Positions 12,102 to 17,372 of a DNA stretch of 64,000 nt are shown piece by piece. Below the pieces are notes generated by a model. It made no database searches, was not told the origin of the DNA, and saw only the letters and a program-made list of their open reading frames with translations. The stretch's first letter is position 1. The number at the start of each line of letters is the position of its first letter. Both the position numbers and the translations under genes were made by a program. This stretch comes from a candidate division KSB1 bacterium (GTDB lineage Bacteria > Electryoneota > RPQS01): contig JACRMR010000008.1 in NCBI GenBank assembly GCA_016214895.1, positions 248,001 through 312,000 of the forward strand, written 5' to 3'.

Positions 12102-12736
12102 TGATCCTGCGTGACCTATCCGGTGCGAATTTCGTCGCGGTGGTCGCCGACACCGTGGAAGCGATTCGCCGCGGCGACCTGGTGCTCTTTCCGACGGATA
12201 CGGTGTACGGGATCGGCGGTTTGGCGTTCAGCCAGACCGTTTTCGAGAAACTGCAGCGCGTCAAGCCGGAACGCGGCGCGAAACCGACCGCGGTTTTGAT
12301 CGACAGCATCATCCGCATGAGCCAGTGCGCGGGGGACGTGCCGTCGCCGCGAATTGTCGCGCTCGCCGAGCGCTTCTGGCCGGGTCCGCTCACGCTGGTC
12401 TGGAAGACGTCGGGCGCGATCCCCGAGGAGTTTCAGACCCCGGATCGCTCGTTGGGTTATCGTGTGCCGAAATCTGATTTTCTGCTACAGGTGTTGAGCG
12501 CAATTGAGGCTCCGTTGTGGGCAACCAGTGCAAACTTGCCGGGGCATAAGCCTCCCGGTTTCTTCGGGGAAGTCAGCCCGGCCGTGACGGGAGCCTGTGA
12601 CTTTGTGGTGAAAACCGGAGAATTACTGCAAGGTCGGGCGTCCACGGTGGTGGACGTTCGAGGCAAGGAGCCGGTCGTCGTTCGCGAACTATCGGTGAAG
12701 GAGTCGGAGATTATGTCGGTGTGGAAGCATGCCTGA
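12101..12736 (+). CDS. tsaC: L-threonylcarbamoyladenylate synthase (TsaC/Sua5/YrdC family)
   Basis: Makes threonylcarbamoyl-AMP from threonine, bicarbonate and ATP for t6A formation. The 211 residues are a single YrdC domain: RRGDLVLFPTDTVYGIGG (about 22-40) with the basic KPERGAKP stretch, RFWPGPLTLVW, LGYRVP, and ATSANLPGHKPP (about 143-154). It lacks the Sua5 C-terminal extension, hence TsaC type. The ATG shares one base with the lptE stop and the end overlaps the DUF3108 gene by 8 nt. Its product feeds TsaD, whose gene begins at 501 on the other strand. Confidence 0.95.
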   Translation: MILRDLSGANFVAVVADTVEAIRRGDLVLFPTDTVYGIGGLAFSQTVFEKLQRVKPERGAKPTAVLIDSIIRMSQCAGDVPSPRIVALAERFWPGPLTLVWKTSGAIPEEFQTPDRSLGYRVPKSDFLLQVLSAIEAPLWATSANLPGHKPPGFFGEVSPAVTGACDFVVKTGELLQGRASTVVDVRGKEPVVVRELSVKESEIMSVWKHA

Positions 12737-13655
12737 CCGGGGAACGAAATTTGCACAGCTTGGAGAAATGCTGACTTTGCACGTGAGACCGCCGACCCAT
12801 CTGCTGACGTTGATTGCGCTGGCCTTGCTGCTTCGCGGGTTCGCGCCTGCTCCGGGCGTGGCCGAGGAACGACCGGACCTGGTGAGTGTGGATCCGTTGG
12901 GCCGCGCCGATTCCGCCATGCGCGACTTGCCAACCATCATCACGCCGGAATACTGGCTGGGCGAGGAGATGGAGTACAAGGTCGTGTTCGGCTTTGTACC
13001 GGCGGGCAAGGCAAAACTCGCCGTGCTTGACACGACCCGCCTGAACGGTGAGCTGGTAATGCGCGCGATGTCCAGTGCGCGCAGCGCGAAAGCCTATGAC
13101 TTGATTTTCAAGGTACGTGATACGATCGAAACGTGGATCGACGCCGATTCGGTGTACACGCATCAATTCCGCAAGCGACTTCACGAGGGCACATACAACG
13201 ACGACAAGTTAGTGAAGTTCGACCTGGCGGAGTGGTTGGTGCATTGGTGGGACGACGGCAAGGCCAAGCCGGTGATCGCGGTGCCGCCGCGAGTGCAGGA
13301 CGTGCTCTCCGCGGGCTTCAAGGCGCGCCTGTTGCCGTTGGCCGTCGGTGACACGATGTATATCACGACTCATGACGTGAACAAGACGTATGACTTGATG
13401 GTCATTACGCACGCGCGCGAGACCGTGGAGTGTGAGCTTGGATCATTTGATTGTTTGAAGGTCGAGCCCGTGTTCCGCAGCGGAGGACTGTTCAAGAAGG
13501 AGCGCGGGGCGCGCGTTTATGTCTGGGTAACCAACGATCAATACCGGATCCCGATCCGAATGCAGTCGCGGGTCTCGTTTGGCTCCTTCATGGCCGTGCT
13601 CGACAACTATCGTCCTCCCTACTCCCGCTCCGGAATCCAAACGATTGGACCATAG
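12729..13655 (+). CDS. DUF3108 family exported protein
   Basis: A 308-residue protein with an N-terminal signal sequence (LLTLIALALLLRGFAPAPGVA) and a DUF3108-type beta-rich body beginning EYWLGEEMEYKVVFGFVPAGKA (residues about 75-96; only the first 20 residues are the hallmark). Members are periplasmic and sometimes linked to envelope or lipoprotein genes; no activity is established. A later ATG at 12768 would give a more compact signal peptide, but its ribosome site is very close, so the 12729 start is kept. It is the last gene of the uvrB operon, followed by a terminator at 13688-13713. Confidence 0.85.
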   Translation: MPDRGTKFAQLGEMLTLHVRPPTHLLTLIALALLLRGFAPAPGVAEERPDLVSVDPLGRADSAMRDLPTIITPEYWLGEEMEYKVVFGFVPAGKAKLAVLDTTRLNGELVMRAMSSARSAKAYDLIFKVRDTIETWIDADSVYTHQFRKRLHEGTYNDDKLVKFDLAEWLVHWWDDGKAKPVIAVPPRVQDVLSAGFKARLLPLAVGDTMYITTHDVNKTYDLMVITHARETVECELGSFDCLKVEPVFRSGGLFKKERGARVYVWVTNDQYRIPIRMQSRVSFGSFMAVLDNYRPPYSRSGIQTIGP

Positions 13656-13756: not shown

Positions 13757-13786
13757 TTGACATCATGCACAAATCTGCTTTATTAG
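13757..13786 (+). promoter_or_regulatory. predicted promoter for the four-gene membrane cassette
   Basis: A perfect TTGACA (13757-13762) is followed after 18 nt by TATTAG (13781-13786, 4 of 6). It lies in the 263-nt gap between the DUF3108 terminator and the FN3-like gene at 13919. The leader would be about 125 nt, in which no further feature is seen. Confidence 0.6.
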
Positions 13787-13918: not shown

Positions 13919-15151
13919 ATGCCCAGACTGTTGCGCCTCTTTGCATGGTGGATGGCCGTTACGGCGTCCATCGCGCTGGCCCAGGACATCCTCGTAACAG
14001 CGCAGGGTCCGGCGCCTCGTGACGTTGCAATTGCCGACGTGCCCAATGATGACGGCACGTCGATGGTTGTCACGTGGCAGCCGAGCCCCTTGCCGGGATT
14101 CCAGATCTTCGGGTACGAAGTGCGATTGTCGGAGAATGACCGGGACGGATTCGTGGTCGTCGGAGCGGCGCCCGCGCTGGCGCGCGATCTGACGGTGAGT
14201 TCCGGGGAGAATTTCCGGATCAGCCACCGCGGGCAATATTTCGCGCAAGTCGTCGCGCTCGATTCAACCTTGGTCGCGGTGCCGGACTCGTTTCGCGCGG
14301 ATTCGGTGGTGTATCGCACGGCCAAGCGGTTGCGCCGGAGCGAGTCGCCGGTGAGCGCGATGTTTCGCCCACAAGTCTCGTGGTTCAATACGAACCGGGT
14401 GAACATCTTGTTGATGATCCTGGTCTTTTTTGCGCTGGTGCTCTACTGGGTTAAGCGGGCGAAGCGCGGCGAAACGCTGAAGTTTCGCCGTTTGGCGGGA
14501 ATCGACGCGATCGACGAAGCGATCGGACGGGCGACGGAATTAGGGAAACCCGTGCTTTATGTACCGGGCACTCAGAACATCGAGAATATTCAGACGATCG
14601 CGTCGATTCAGTTATTGACATCGGTAGCATCGAAGTGCGCAAACTACGACACCCCGATCATCGTACCGCTGAACCGCGCGTTTATGGTGGGAGTCGCCGA
14701 AGAGGCGGTGAAGCAGGGCTATCTCAACGCGGCACGACCGGACAGCTACAACCGGGACAATATTCGCTATCTCTCGGATGAGCAGTTCGCGTTTACGAGC
14801 GGAGTCGCGGGGATCATGATGCGCGAAAAGACCGCGGCTCACCTGTATCTCGGAGCCTTCTTCGCGGAGTCCTTGATCCTCTCGGAGACCGGATTCGCCA
14901 GCGGGTCGATCCAGATCGCAGGGACGGCGAACGTGCATCAGCTGCCGTTTTTCGTAGTCGCCTGTGACTACACATTGATCGGCGAGGAGTATTTTGCGGC
15001 GAGCGCGCTCGTGACACAAAACGCGGACATGCTGGGGACGGTCAAGGCCACGGACTGGTTCAAGCTCGGGTTGATCGTGCTGCTGGTGGCCGCCATGATT
15101 CTCGAACTGTTTGGCGTTCACGTTATCGCCAGCTGGTTCTCCGTAAGCTAA
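13919..15151 (+). CDS. exported FN3-like/transmembrane protein with Rossmann-like cytoplasmic domain (possibly DUF6754)
   Basis: Function unknown. The 410 residues show a signal peptide (1-22, cut near ALAQ), an FN3-like beta domain outside the membrane (about 30-120, including MVVTWQPSP and FGYEVRLSEN), one membrane helix (about 137-157, NILLMILVFFALVLYWV), a cytoplasmic alpha/beta domain (about 165-375: GKPVLYVPGTQNIENIQTIA, PIIVPLNRAFMVGVAEEAVK, AGTANVHQLPFFVVACDY), and a C-terminal helix (about 380-403). It may belong to the family catalogued as DUF6754, which I could not verify. First gene of a cassette of four membrane proteins. Confidence 0.75.
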   Translation: MPRLLRLFAWWMAVTASIALAQDILVTAQGPAPRDVAIADVPNDDGTSMVVTWQPSPLPGFQIFGYEVRLSENDRDGFVVVGAAPALARDLTVSSGENFRISHRGQYFAQVVALDSTLVAVPDSFRADSVVYRTAKRLRRSESPVSAMFRPQVSWFNTNRVNILLMILVFFALVLYWVKRAKRGETLKFRRLAGIDAIDEAIGRATELGKPVLYVPGTQNIENIQTIASIQLLTSVASKCANYDTPIIVPLNRAFMVGVAEEAVKQGYLNAARPDSYNRDNIRYLSDEQFAFTSGVAGIMMREKTAAHLYLGAFFAESLILSETGFASGSIQIAGTANVHQLPFFVVACDYTLIGEEYFAASALVTQNADMLGTVKATDWFKLGLIVLLVAAMILELFGVHVIASWFSVS

Positions 15152-15170
15152 CCCGGACCCGAATTCAGGC

Positions 15171-15794
15171 ATGAGAAGAGAGATTCCGCTGCTGATTACG
15201 TTGGTATTTGGGCTGTTTATGATTGTCCAATACTTCATTCCGCACCCGACGGTGAACTTGCTTGCCGGTCAGTTGCAGGGTTGGGCGATCATCGTGATCG
15301 CATTTTCTTATGTGCTGGGGTCGGCGAATATCCTGCGGATCAATGGCGAGTTGGTCTATCGCAAGGCGCCGCATTGGCCGTACAAACTGGTATTGGTGCT
15401 GGGCTTCTTTCTGATGGTGATCCCGGGTCTGGTGGGCGGCATCAAGGAAGGAGACTTTGCCAACGATCGGTTGTTCAACAATATCTACACGCCGATGTCG
15501 GCGACGATGTATGCTTCGCTCGCGTTCTTCATCGCCTCCGCGGCCTTTCGCGCATTTCGAATTCGGACGTGGCAGGCCGCGGTGCTGGCGATCACCGCGG
15601 TACTCGTGATGCTCGGGCGGATTCCGCTCAGCGCGTCGATTTGGAAAGACCTGCCGCCGGTCGTGGACTGGATCATGAATGTGCCGAATACCGCCGCGCA
15701 GCGCGGAATTCTGATCGGGGCGGCGCTGGGCGCGATTGCCACCGGGCTCAAGGTTATCCTGGGCATTGAACGCAGTTATCTGGGTCGGGAATGA
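15171..15794 (+). CDS. polytopic membrane protein of unknown function (cassette gene 2)
   Basis: A 207-residue protein with about six membrane helices: LLITLVFGLFMIVQYFI, AIIVIAFSYVLGSANIL, LVLVLGFFLMVIPGLVGG, TMYASLAFFIASAAFRAF, AAVLAITAVLVMLG and a C-terminal GILIGAALGAIATGLKVIL. No catalytic or transporter signature is recognised. A charged stretch KEGDFANDRLFNN lies between helices 3 and 4. It starts 19 nt after the first cassette gene and ends 16 nt before the third, so the four genes are cotranscribed. A membrane scaffold partner for the two bitopic neighbours is a reasonable guess and no more. Confidence 0.75.
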   Translation: MRREIPLLITLVFGLFMIVQYFIPHPTVNLLAGQLQGWAIIVIAFSYVLGSANILRINGELVYRKAPHWPYKLVLVLGFFLMVIPGLVGGIKEGDFANDRLFNNIYTPMSATMYASLAFFIASAAFRAFRIRTWQAAVLAITAVLVMLGRIPLSASIWKDLPPVVDWIMNVPNTAAQRGILIGAALGAIATGLKVILGIERSYLGRE

Positions 15795-15810
15795 GCGAAC
15801 AAGGAAATAC

Positions 15811-16647
15811 ATGAGCCATCTCTTTCTGTCGAAACTTGAGAAGCTCGACCGGCGTTGGATCTACCTGTTCATTGCGCTCAGTGTCGCGCTGCCATTGTTT
15901 CTGAAATTCGGCATCGCGCCCGCGGTGACGCCGCCGGTTCGCGCATTTTACAACGCGATCGAGGAGCTGCCGGCCGGTTCGTTAGTGCTGCTATCCGCGG
16001 ATTACGATCCGGGCGGCAAAGCCGAATTGAATCCGATGATGCAGGCCACCCTGCGCCACCTATGTGAAAGGCGCCTGCGCTTTGTGGTGATCACGCTGTG
16101 GTCCACCGGGCCGGCGCTGGTCGAGCAGCAGGTGAATTTGATCTGTCGCGATGAGTACGGGCTGAAGTACGGCGAAGATTACTGCTACCTCGGCCAGAAA
16201 GAGGGGCGGGAGGCGGTGATTGTGGAAATGGGCCGCTCGCTGCGCAGCGCATTTCCGTTGGACTACTATCACACGCCGATTGAGCGGATTCCGCTCATGC
16301 GGACCGTGGAAAATTATGCGAGTTTCGCTTTGCTCGTCAACATCTCGGCCGGCTATCCCGGCACCAAGGAGTACGTGCAGTATGTTCAGGCGCGCTTCGG
16401 GATCCCGATTGTCAGCGGCGCGTCAGCGGTTTCGGTTCCTGAATACTCCGCTTACCTGCAGAGCGGGCAATTGCGCGGATTGTTGACCGGGATCAGCGGG
16501 GCGGCAGAGTATGAATCACTCCTGAAGAAACCGGGGTTGGCGCTGATTACGATGGGCGGTCAGACGACCGGGCATTTGATTATCATCTTTTTCATCGTCG
16601 TCGGCAACGTGATCTTCTTCATCAACCGTCGGTCAAGGAGCGCTTGA
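15811..16647 (+). CDS. bitopic membrane protein with extracytoplasmic alpha/beta domain (cassette gene 3)
   Basis: Unrecognised 278-residue protein: an N-terminal anchor (about 17-36, WIYLFIALSVALPLFLKFGI), a large soluble domain, and a C-terminal helix (about 250-270, LIIIFFIVVGNVIFF). The soluble part has alternating beta-alpha segments (LPAGSLVLLSADYDPGG, RFVVITLWSTGPALVEQQ, RFGIPIVSGASAVSVPEY, PGLALITMGGQT), resembling a Rossmann or periplasmic-binding-like fold. The ATG at 15811 has AAGGAA 5 nt before it; a longer upstream frame overlaps gene 2 and is rejected. Its stop TGA overlaps the start of gene 4 (TGATG). Confidence 0.78.
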   Translation: MSHLFLSKLEKLDRRWIYLFIALSVALPLFLKFGIAPAVTPPVRAFYNAIEELPAGSLVLLSADYDPGGKAELNPMMQATLRHLCERRLRFVVITLWSTGPALVEQQVNLICRDEYGLKYGEDYCYLGQKEGREAVIVEMGRSLRSAFPLDYYHTPIERIPLMRTVENYASFALLVNISAGYPGTKEYVQYVQARFGIPIVSGASAVSVPEYSAYLQSGQLRGLLTGISGAAEYESLLKKPGLALITMGGQTTGHLIIIFFIVVGNVIFFINRRSRSA

Positions 16648-17306
16648 TGGATTTTCTGTGGAGCAGCGTTGCGGCCTTCTGTACGGTAGCGGTGCTGAGT
16701 TTCCTGTATAAGGACAATCCGTTCTACAAGTTTGCCGAGCACCTCTTTGTCGGAGTCGCGGCAGGCTATGTGGTTTGCACCGAGTTCTACAATGTGATTC
16801 TGCCGAACTTGTGGCGTCCGCTTTCCACCGGACAGAACTACTTTCTGCTCATTCCGCTCTTGATGGGGGCGGCCTTGTTTACGCGCTTCTCGTCCGGGCT
16901 GTCCTGGATCTCGCGGTACCCGATGTCGTTGATTATCGGCGTCTATGCGGGGCTGGCGGTCATTGGCTTTGCCTCCGGCGATCTGGTGCTGCAGGTGCAG
17001 GCGAGCTTGATCCCGGTGATTTCGGTGCCATCGATTGAGCATTTCGCCGGCAATCCCGGGGCGTTGACCTTCCTCGGCATGCTGGACAATCCGACATTTA
17101 CCATCGGTCTGGTGTGCGTGCTGTTTTACTTCTTCTTTTCGATCGAGCAGCGGGGTCCGTTGCGATACGCGGCGATTGGCGGGACCGCGCTGCTCATGGT
17201 GGGCTTTGGGGCCGGCTACGGCTACACCGTGATGAACCGGATCGCATTGCTGTTCGATCGACTGTATTTTCTGATGGTCGAGTATCTCAAAGTCGCGACG
17301 GTGTAA
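16647..17306 (+). CDS. polytopic membrane protein of unknown function (cassette gene 4)
   Basis: A 219-residue protein with about seven membrane helices (for example FLWSSVAAFCTVAVLSFLY, FLLIPLLMGAALFTRF, LIIGVYAGLAVIGFASG, FTIGLVCVLFYFFFSIEQ, AAIGGTALLMVGFGAGYGY). A polar stretch VISVPSIEHFAGNPGA lies in a loop. No family is recognised. The ATG at 16647 has AAGGAG at 16635-16640 and shares one base with the preceding stop; the TTG three bases earlier is less likely. It is the last cassette gene, followed by a strong terminator. Confidence 0.75.
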   Translation: MDFLWSSVAAFCTVAVLSFLYKDNPFYKFAEHLFVGVAAGYVVCTEFYNVILPNLWRPLSTGQNYFLLIPLLMGAALFTRFSSGLSWISRYPMSLIIGVYAGLAVIGFASGDLVLQVQASLIPVISVPSIEHFAGNPGALTFLGMLDNPTFTIGLVCVLFYFFFSIEQRGPLRYAAIGGTALLMVGFGAGYGYTVMNRIALLFDRLYFLMVEYLKVATV

Positions 17307-17343
17307 GACTGCTGGCCGAACAGGTGCCGATTCACAAGATGCG

Positions 17344-17372
17344 AAACGCCGCGGTTGATTCCGCGGCGTTTT
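17344..17372. terminator. bidirectional terminator between the membrane cassette and lepB
   Basis: A perfect 11-bp stem (17344-17354 with 17361-17371, AAACGCCGCGG against CCGCGGCGTTT) with loop TTGATT. It has a T-run on the plus strand and A-run before it giving T on the minus strand. It sits between convergent genes, so it can end both. Confidence 0.85.

Follow-up and report, generated by a model that had tools for sequence, protein, structure and literature searches.

The four genes g1 to g4, found within the window (the whole 64,000-nucleotide stretch analysed here, from a candidate division KSB1 bacterium), very probably encode a single obligate heteromeric complex of the inner membrane. 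This conclusion is drawn from the co-occurrence of the four genes, their conserved order, their co-duplication and the fact that dispersed genes are still kept as sets. Of the subunits, three belong to no family and the fourth is classified only as a DUF, while the set itself is conserved in two phylum-level groups with several versions per genome. The conservation and multiplication of the set point to a membrane function that is important in uncultured bacteria and has been reused repeatedly, and the grouping of the four genes makes DUF6754 directly testable.

We confirmed that the four adjacent genes are real and rightly placed, with the lengths given in the original prediction (Table 1), and that their frames are conserved at full length in relatives. 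Between two relatives in one genus, synonymous sites of g1 to g4 were near saturation (pS 0.70-0.87) while pN was low (0.07-0.18), indicating that all four are genes under purifying selection. Of the spacing first given as -3 to +19 nt, the +19 proved right, and the other two junctions are a 16-nt gap and a 1-nt overlap rather than -3. The strong terminator anticipated after g4 corresponds to a good hairpin (dG -23 kcal/mol, z -3.4), which was absent from the output of a mechanical terminator scan. The cassette had also been credited with a promoter of its own, whose letters are present, at one of the two places in the whole genome where this exact string occurs. Its status as a promoter is weak, however, because TATTAG agrees with the -10 consensus at four of six positions, a consensus promoter scan did not report the site, similar sites with up to two mismatches are expected about once per window by chance, and the position is not conserved in the two closest relatives. 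It was therefore rejected as evidence.

Table 1 Positions of the cassette genes, the upstream neighbour and the flanking signals within the window.
Feature	Position	Strand	Description
DUF3108 protein, neighbour upstream of g1	12729..13655	+	PF11306 E 4.5e-36; synteny
Promoter-like TTGACA-N18-TATTAG	13757..13786	+	Letters only; weak
g1	13919..15151	+	410 aa; N-terminal hydrophobic segment, FN3-like external segment, TM, cytoplasmic DUF6754 core (~residues 185-380), C-terminal TM (predicted)
g2	15171..15794	+	207 aa; polytopic (~6 TM, predicted); without known family
g3	15811..16647	+	278 aa; TM - external alpha/beta domain - TM (predicted); without known family
g4	16647..17306	+	219 aa; polytopic (~5-6 TM, predicted); without known family
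Terminator-like hairpin	~17343..17372	.	12 bp stem, 6-nt loop, short T tail; between convergent g4 and lepB (- strand)

What had been offered as a possible relation of g1 to DUF6754 turned out to be certain membership, as residues 152-406 matched Pfam PF20539 with 348.2 bits (cut-off 27; E 2.9e-104) over model positions 2-256 of 257. The likeness thus extends over practically the whole model, but the label covers one domain, whose four-gene set and paralogous versions were not found described in the open-access literature, where we also found no mention of DUF6754 or PF20539. For g2, g3 and g4 of the window, searches of Pfam, NCBIfam, PADLOC and PDB sequences yielded no family, the best matches being marginal and far below the curated cut-offs. 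The Pfam and PDB searches were repeated with alignments of 18 members for each of these genes, and again no Pfam model scored above its cut-off and no PDB sequence family was matched. Clear matches to unrelated known families, which the original prediction had named as an argument against itself, were therefore not found for g2-g4, and across Pfam, NCBIfam, PADLOC, PHROGs and PDB sequences DUF6754 for g1 was the sole family matched by any of the products. A phage-defence reading was rejected, since no PADLOC model matched any of the four products at E values up to 1. Relatives were found neither in viral contigs (searched with g1 and g3) nor in plasmids (searched with g1). Neither the pair g1 and g3 nor the pair g2 and g4 gave support for a common origin (hhalign probability 2.9% and 0.4%, respectively).

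Topology was evaluated by alignment-averaged hydropathy and the positive-inside rule. Both g1 and g3 appear bitopic, as had been proposed. The transmembrane helices of g1 are centred at ~164-175 and, for the C-terminal one, at ~386-398, its core is predicted to be cytoplasmic, and we infer by the positive-inside rule that the alpha/beta domain of g3, enclosed between one N-terminal and one C-terminal transmembrane helix, lies outside. For the polytopic pair, predicted to have about six and seven helices, hydropathy gave about six in g2 and five to six in g4, so that the seven helices proposed for one of them were not clearly supported. The outside FN3-like domain ascribed to g1 is plausible, yet sub-threshold: FN3 (PF00041) scored 13.5 bits in g1 and 19.6 bits in the best relative (cut-off 25), and the g1 profile matched FN3-containing PDB chains at E 0.05-0.9 only. 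The AlphaFold models were of low confidence (pLDDT 58 and 51, from alignments of two rows, the window and one related locus) and their Foldseek matches were not significant, so that no fold was drawn from them and they neither help nor hurt any mechanism.

Loss of co-occurrence in relatives had been named as the observation that would speak against the system; instead, co-occurrence was nearly perfect. Among 39 genomes of the window's phylum, g1, g2 and g3 were found in an identical set of 16 and g4 in 15 of these, the contig of the remaining genome (G004) stopping right after g3. Within the window's family, all four genes are present in G000 (the window's genome), G028, G029 and G032 and none in G027 and G033-G036, while the sister family includes one genome with all four (G025) and one with none (G026). 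The presence/absence pattern cuts across relatives and is not simply one tree branch. A respiratory lifestyle behind this pattern was rejected, as neither COX1 nor POR follows the distribution of the cassette. A second phylum-level group, entered via a locus of MAG Meg22_46_Bin_89, carries the system in 8/8 genomes, each with one to six copies of g1 and one to six of g3, and most with about five complete cassettes. DUF6754 was found in 0/14 well-known control genomes. Overall, the order g1-g2-g3-g4, on one strand and near contiguous, was kept across both groups in 28 of 32 loci, the other four having inserted genes or a displaced g1; the window cassette is one of many, not a one-off. In G039 and G042, the surplus of g1 over g3 at the examined loci consists of one orphan g1 without g2-g4. 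At least two second-group genomes have such an orphan DUF6754 gene next to genes for FAD-dependent oxidoreductases (L088:1879-3072, L093:9095-10243).

The pairwise distance matrices of the four genes correlated with each other at 0.79-0.95, compared to a maximum of 0.22 with shuffled labels, and for each gene in the second group the nearest neighbour came from the same cassette type or gene context in 17/17 cases. In a concatenated tree the cassettes were resolved into clades A to F, with the window in clade B. These trees and distances separate the cassettes into at least five deep paralogous clades, with duplication and divergence of entire sets. Clades A and B each span both groups (support >=0.989), so the duplications look older than the group split, unless cassettes were transferred horizontally. 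In family f3 of the window's phylum, the A set adjoins DUF3108 and then a B-type g1, and the B-type g2, g3 and g4 lie on other contigs. The gene trees place all four of these B genes in clade B, with moderate support (0.44-0.75) for some A/B placements. For most genes, the majority of f3 genomes have a single A and a single B copy, with gaps in fragmented assemblies. The arrangement suggests that an ancestor carried A and B in tandem and that, in the same LptE - Sua5 - DUF3108 - LepB setting, B would have been kept by the window's family and A by G025. An alternative explanation, that the four genes are hitch-hiking neighbours without a common function, would be consistent with their operon-like packing and with possible movement as a block. 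It is highly improbable, because the B genes of f3 are scattered but usually all four are still kept, which operon hitch-hiking does not explain, and because the genes are jointly present or absent in the 39 genomes.

Conservation was uneven within the proteins. Between clades, identity was 56% in the DUF6754 core, 43% in g4, 41% in g2, 35% in the external domain of g3 and 22% in the signal/FN3 region, and a conserved core combined with divergent external domains is the pattern that would be expected of a shared engine with diverging recognition parts. Invariant polar residues of the g1 core are R190, E200, R204, E207, R302, E317, S318, E323, Q332, T336, Q341 and C349, with D350, E356 and E357 nearly invariant; g3 has invariant D64, E72, H83, D151 and Q220, g4 contains the motif SFLYxDNPxYxxAE, and both g2 and g4 have invariant charged residues within or near membrane helices.

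Given a complex, its architecture and the conserved-inside, variable-outside pattern point tentatively to a substrate-specific transporter or receptor. The best explanation overall, in which our confidence remains short of even, is that the obligate complex acts as such a transporter or receptor and has at least five or six paralogous versions of ancient origin. The polytopic g2 and g4 would provide a membrane-embedded path, the external domain of g3, aided by the variable FN3-like segment of g1, would recognise an outside ligand, and the cytoplasmic DUF6754 core would perform a step common to all versions, which may be gating, energy coupling or catalysis. The versions would then be different substrate-specific transporters or receptors, each located beside the metabolic genes it serves. 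Against this reading, no subunit matched a transporter, receptor or binding-protein family, family searches revealed neither a nucleotide-binding domain nor any other known energy module, and the neighbouring enzymes follow no obvious common substrate logic.

Other functions were weighed against the same features. The g1 core is the best conserved part, with many invariant polar residues, and paralogs adjoin different metabolic enzymes, which would also suit a membrane-bound enzyme. Here the DUF6754 core would be catalytic in the cytoplasm and act on a membrane or cytoplasmic substrate, g2-g4 would serve as anchor, substrate channel and external cap, and the paralogs would perform related steps in different pathways. 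We consider this somewhat unlikely, because g1 gave no enzyme-family match in the family searches and because two more polytopic subunits and a divergent external domain exceed the needs of an anchor. A signal-transduction receptor complex, with the external domain as sensor and the DUF6754 core as relay, would likewise account for the divergent outside and conserved inside, and for bitopic g1 and g3 spanning the membrane. This is quite improbable, as an output domain (kinase, cyclase, regulator) is neither fused to the subunits nor a consistent neighbour and two polytopic subunits would be unusual for a receptor.

Returning to the transporter or receptor reading, the cassette was compared to TRAP, TTT, ECF and ABC importers, to which it is similar only in how it might work, with an external alpha/beta domain, two polytopic subunits and paralogs beside different metabolic genes. 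Unlike these systems, it shows no sequence match to them and has no ATPase, its external domain would be tethered by two transmembrane helices, and it has an extra conserved cytoplasmic domain. Subunit models of TRAP, TTT, ABC and ECF systems gave nothing above cut-off for g2-g4, and the lone TctC match (E 0.17) is noise. One weak local match of g2 to subunit G of the Mrp Na+/H+ antiporter (NCBIfam NF009313, E 0.003) reached 17.5 bits compared to a cut-off of 151 and the cassette has no other Mrp subunit, so membership in this antiporter was rejected. The system cannot be filed under a known kind, though its structure, once solved, may still prove to have a known fold; apart from the DUF6754 label on one subunit, no description of it was found in the open-access literature. 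It is possible rather than probable that it represents a new class of multi-subunit membrane machine, distinct from all transporter, receptor and enzyme complexes described so far, in which a conserved cytoplasmic DUF6754 core drives or gates two small polytopic subunits together with an external recognition subunit and whole sets diversified before the group split.

The window shares its conserved LptE, Sua5, DUF3108, cassette, LepB neighbourhood with G025, G028 and G029, and in G032 g4 adjoins the same downstream gene. DUF3108 also precedes g1 in f3 genomes, in one of them beside sugar transferase genes, and this linkage recurs across families of the window's phylum. The DUF3108 protein is a linked neighbour of the cassette, for which we do not claim membership in the complex. 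In some genomes, a Rossmann-like protein with weak deoxyhypusine-synthase/ArgZ similarity is encoded between DUF3108 and g1 (L036:3715-4686, L037:5981-6934), and a true member of the deoxyhypusine-synthase family (PF01916) precedes the sole cassette of G046 (L105:122-1243). The conserved locus with its signal peptidase LepB, as well as the DUF3108 gene before g1 in f3 with sugar transferase genes once nearby, would be consistent with an envelope-biogenesis or scaffold complex, e.g. for lipid or polysaccharide handling or as a membrane-organising assembly. We regard such a role as unlikely, however, since LepA, LepB and Sua5 are generic neighbours, other paralogous cassettes, both in the second group and at other sites in the window's phylum, have unrelated surroundings, and the system is missing from 23/39 genomes of the phylum, so that the envelope can generally do without it.

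The neighbours in the second group are stable within a clade and differ between clades, and no single pathway unites the clades. Clade A is found beside an M28 peptidase, clade B beside MutL, a 378-aa protein and a lipoate ligase, near glycine-decarboxylase genes, clade C beside a transketolase and mostly a zincin, clade D beside HpaB and a SAM-hydroxide adenosyltransferase, and clade E beside a glycogen debranching enzyme. The conserved protein between MutL and the clade-B cassette (378-380 aa; L090:6683-7822, L100:6879-8012) has no Pfam match. In the window's phylum it occurs in 16/39 genomes, nearly the same set as the cassette, but is located elsewhere than at the cassette, in f3 beside dapA/dapB-like genes. 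Although both track the cassette roughly in this phylum, MutL and the 378-aa protein were not counted as cassette parts, because of the location of the 378-aa protein and because the window's genome lacks both. That genome is also alone among the 39 genomes of its phylum in giving no POR-family (PF01558) match, and in its metabolism it looks different from its relatives. A conserved membrane protein of ~511 aa, without a Pfam match, is encoded divergently to the clade-E cassette (L097:9920-11452, L087:6815-8353).
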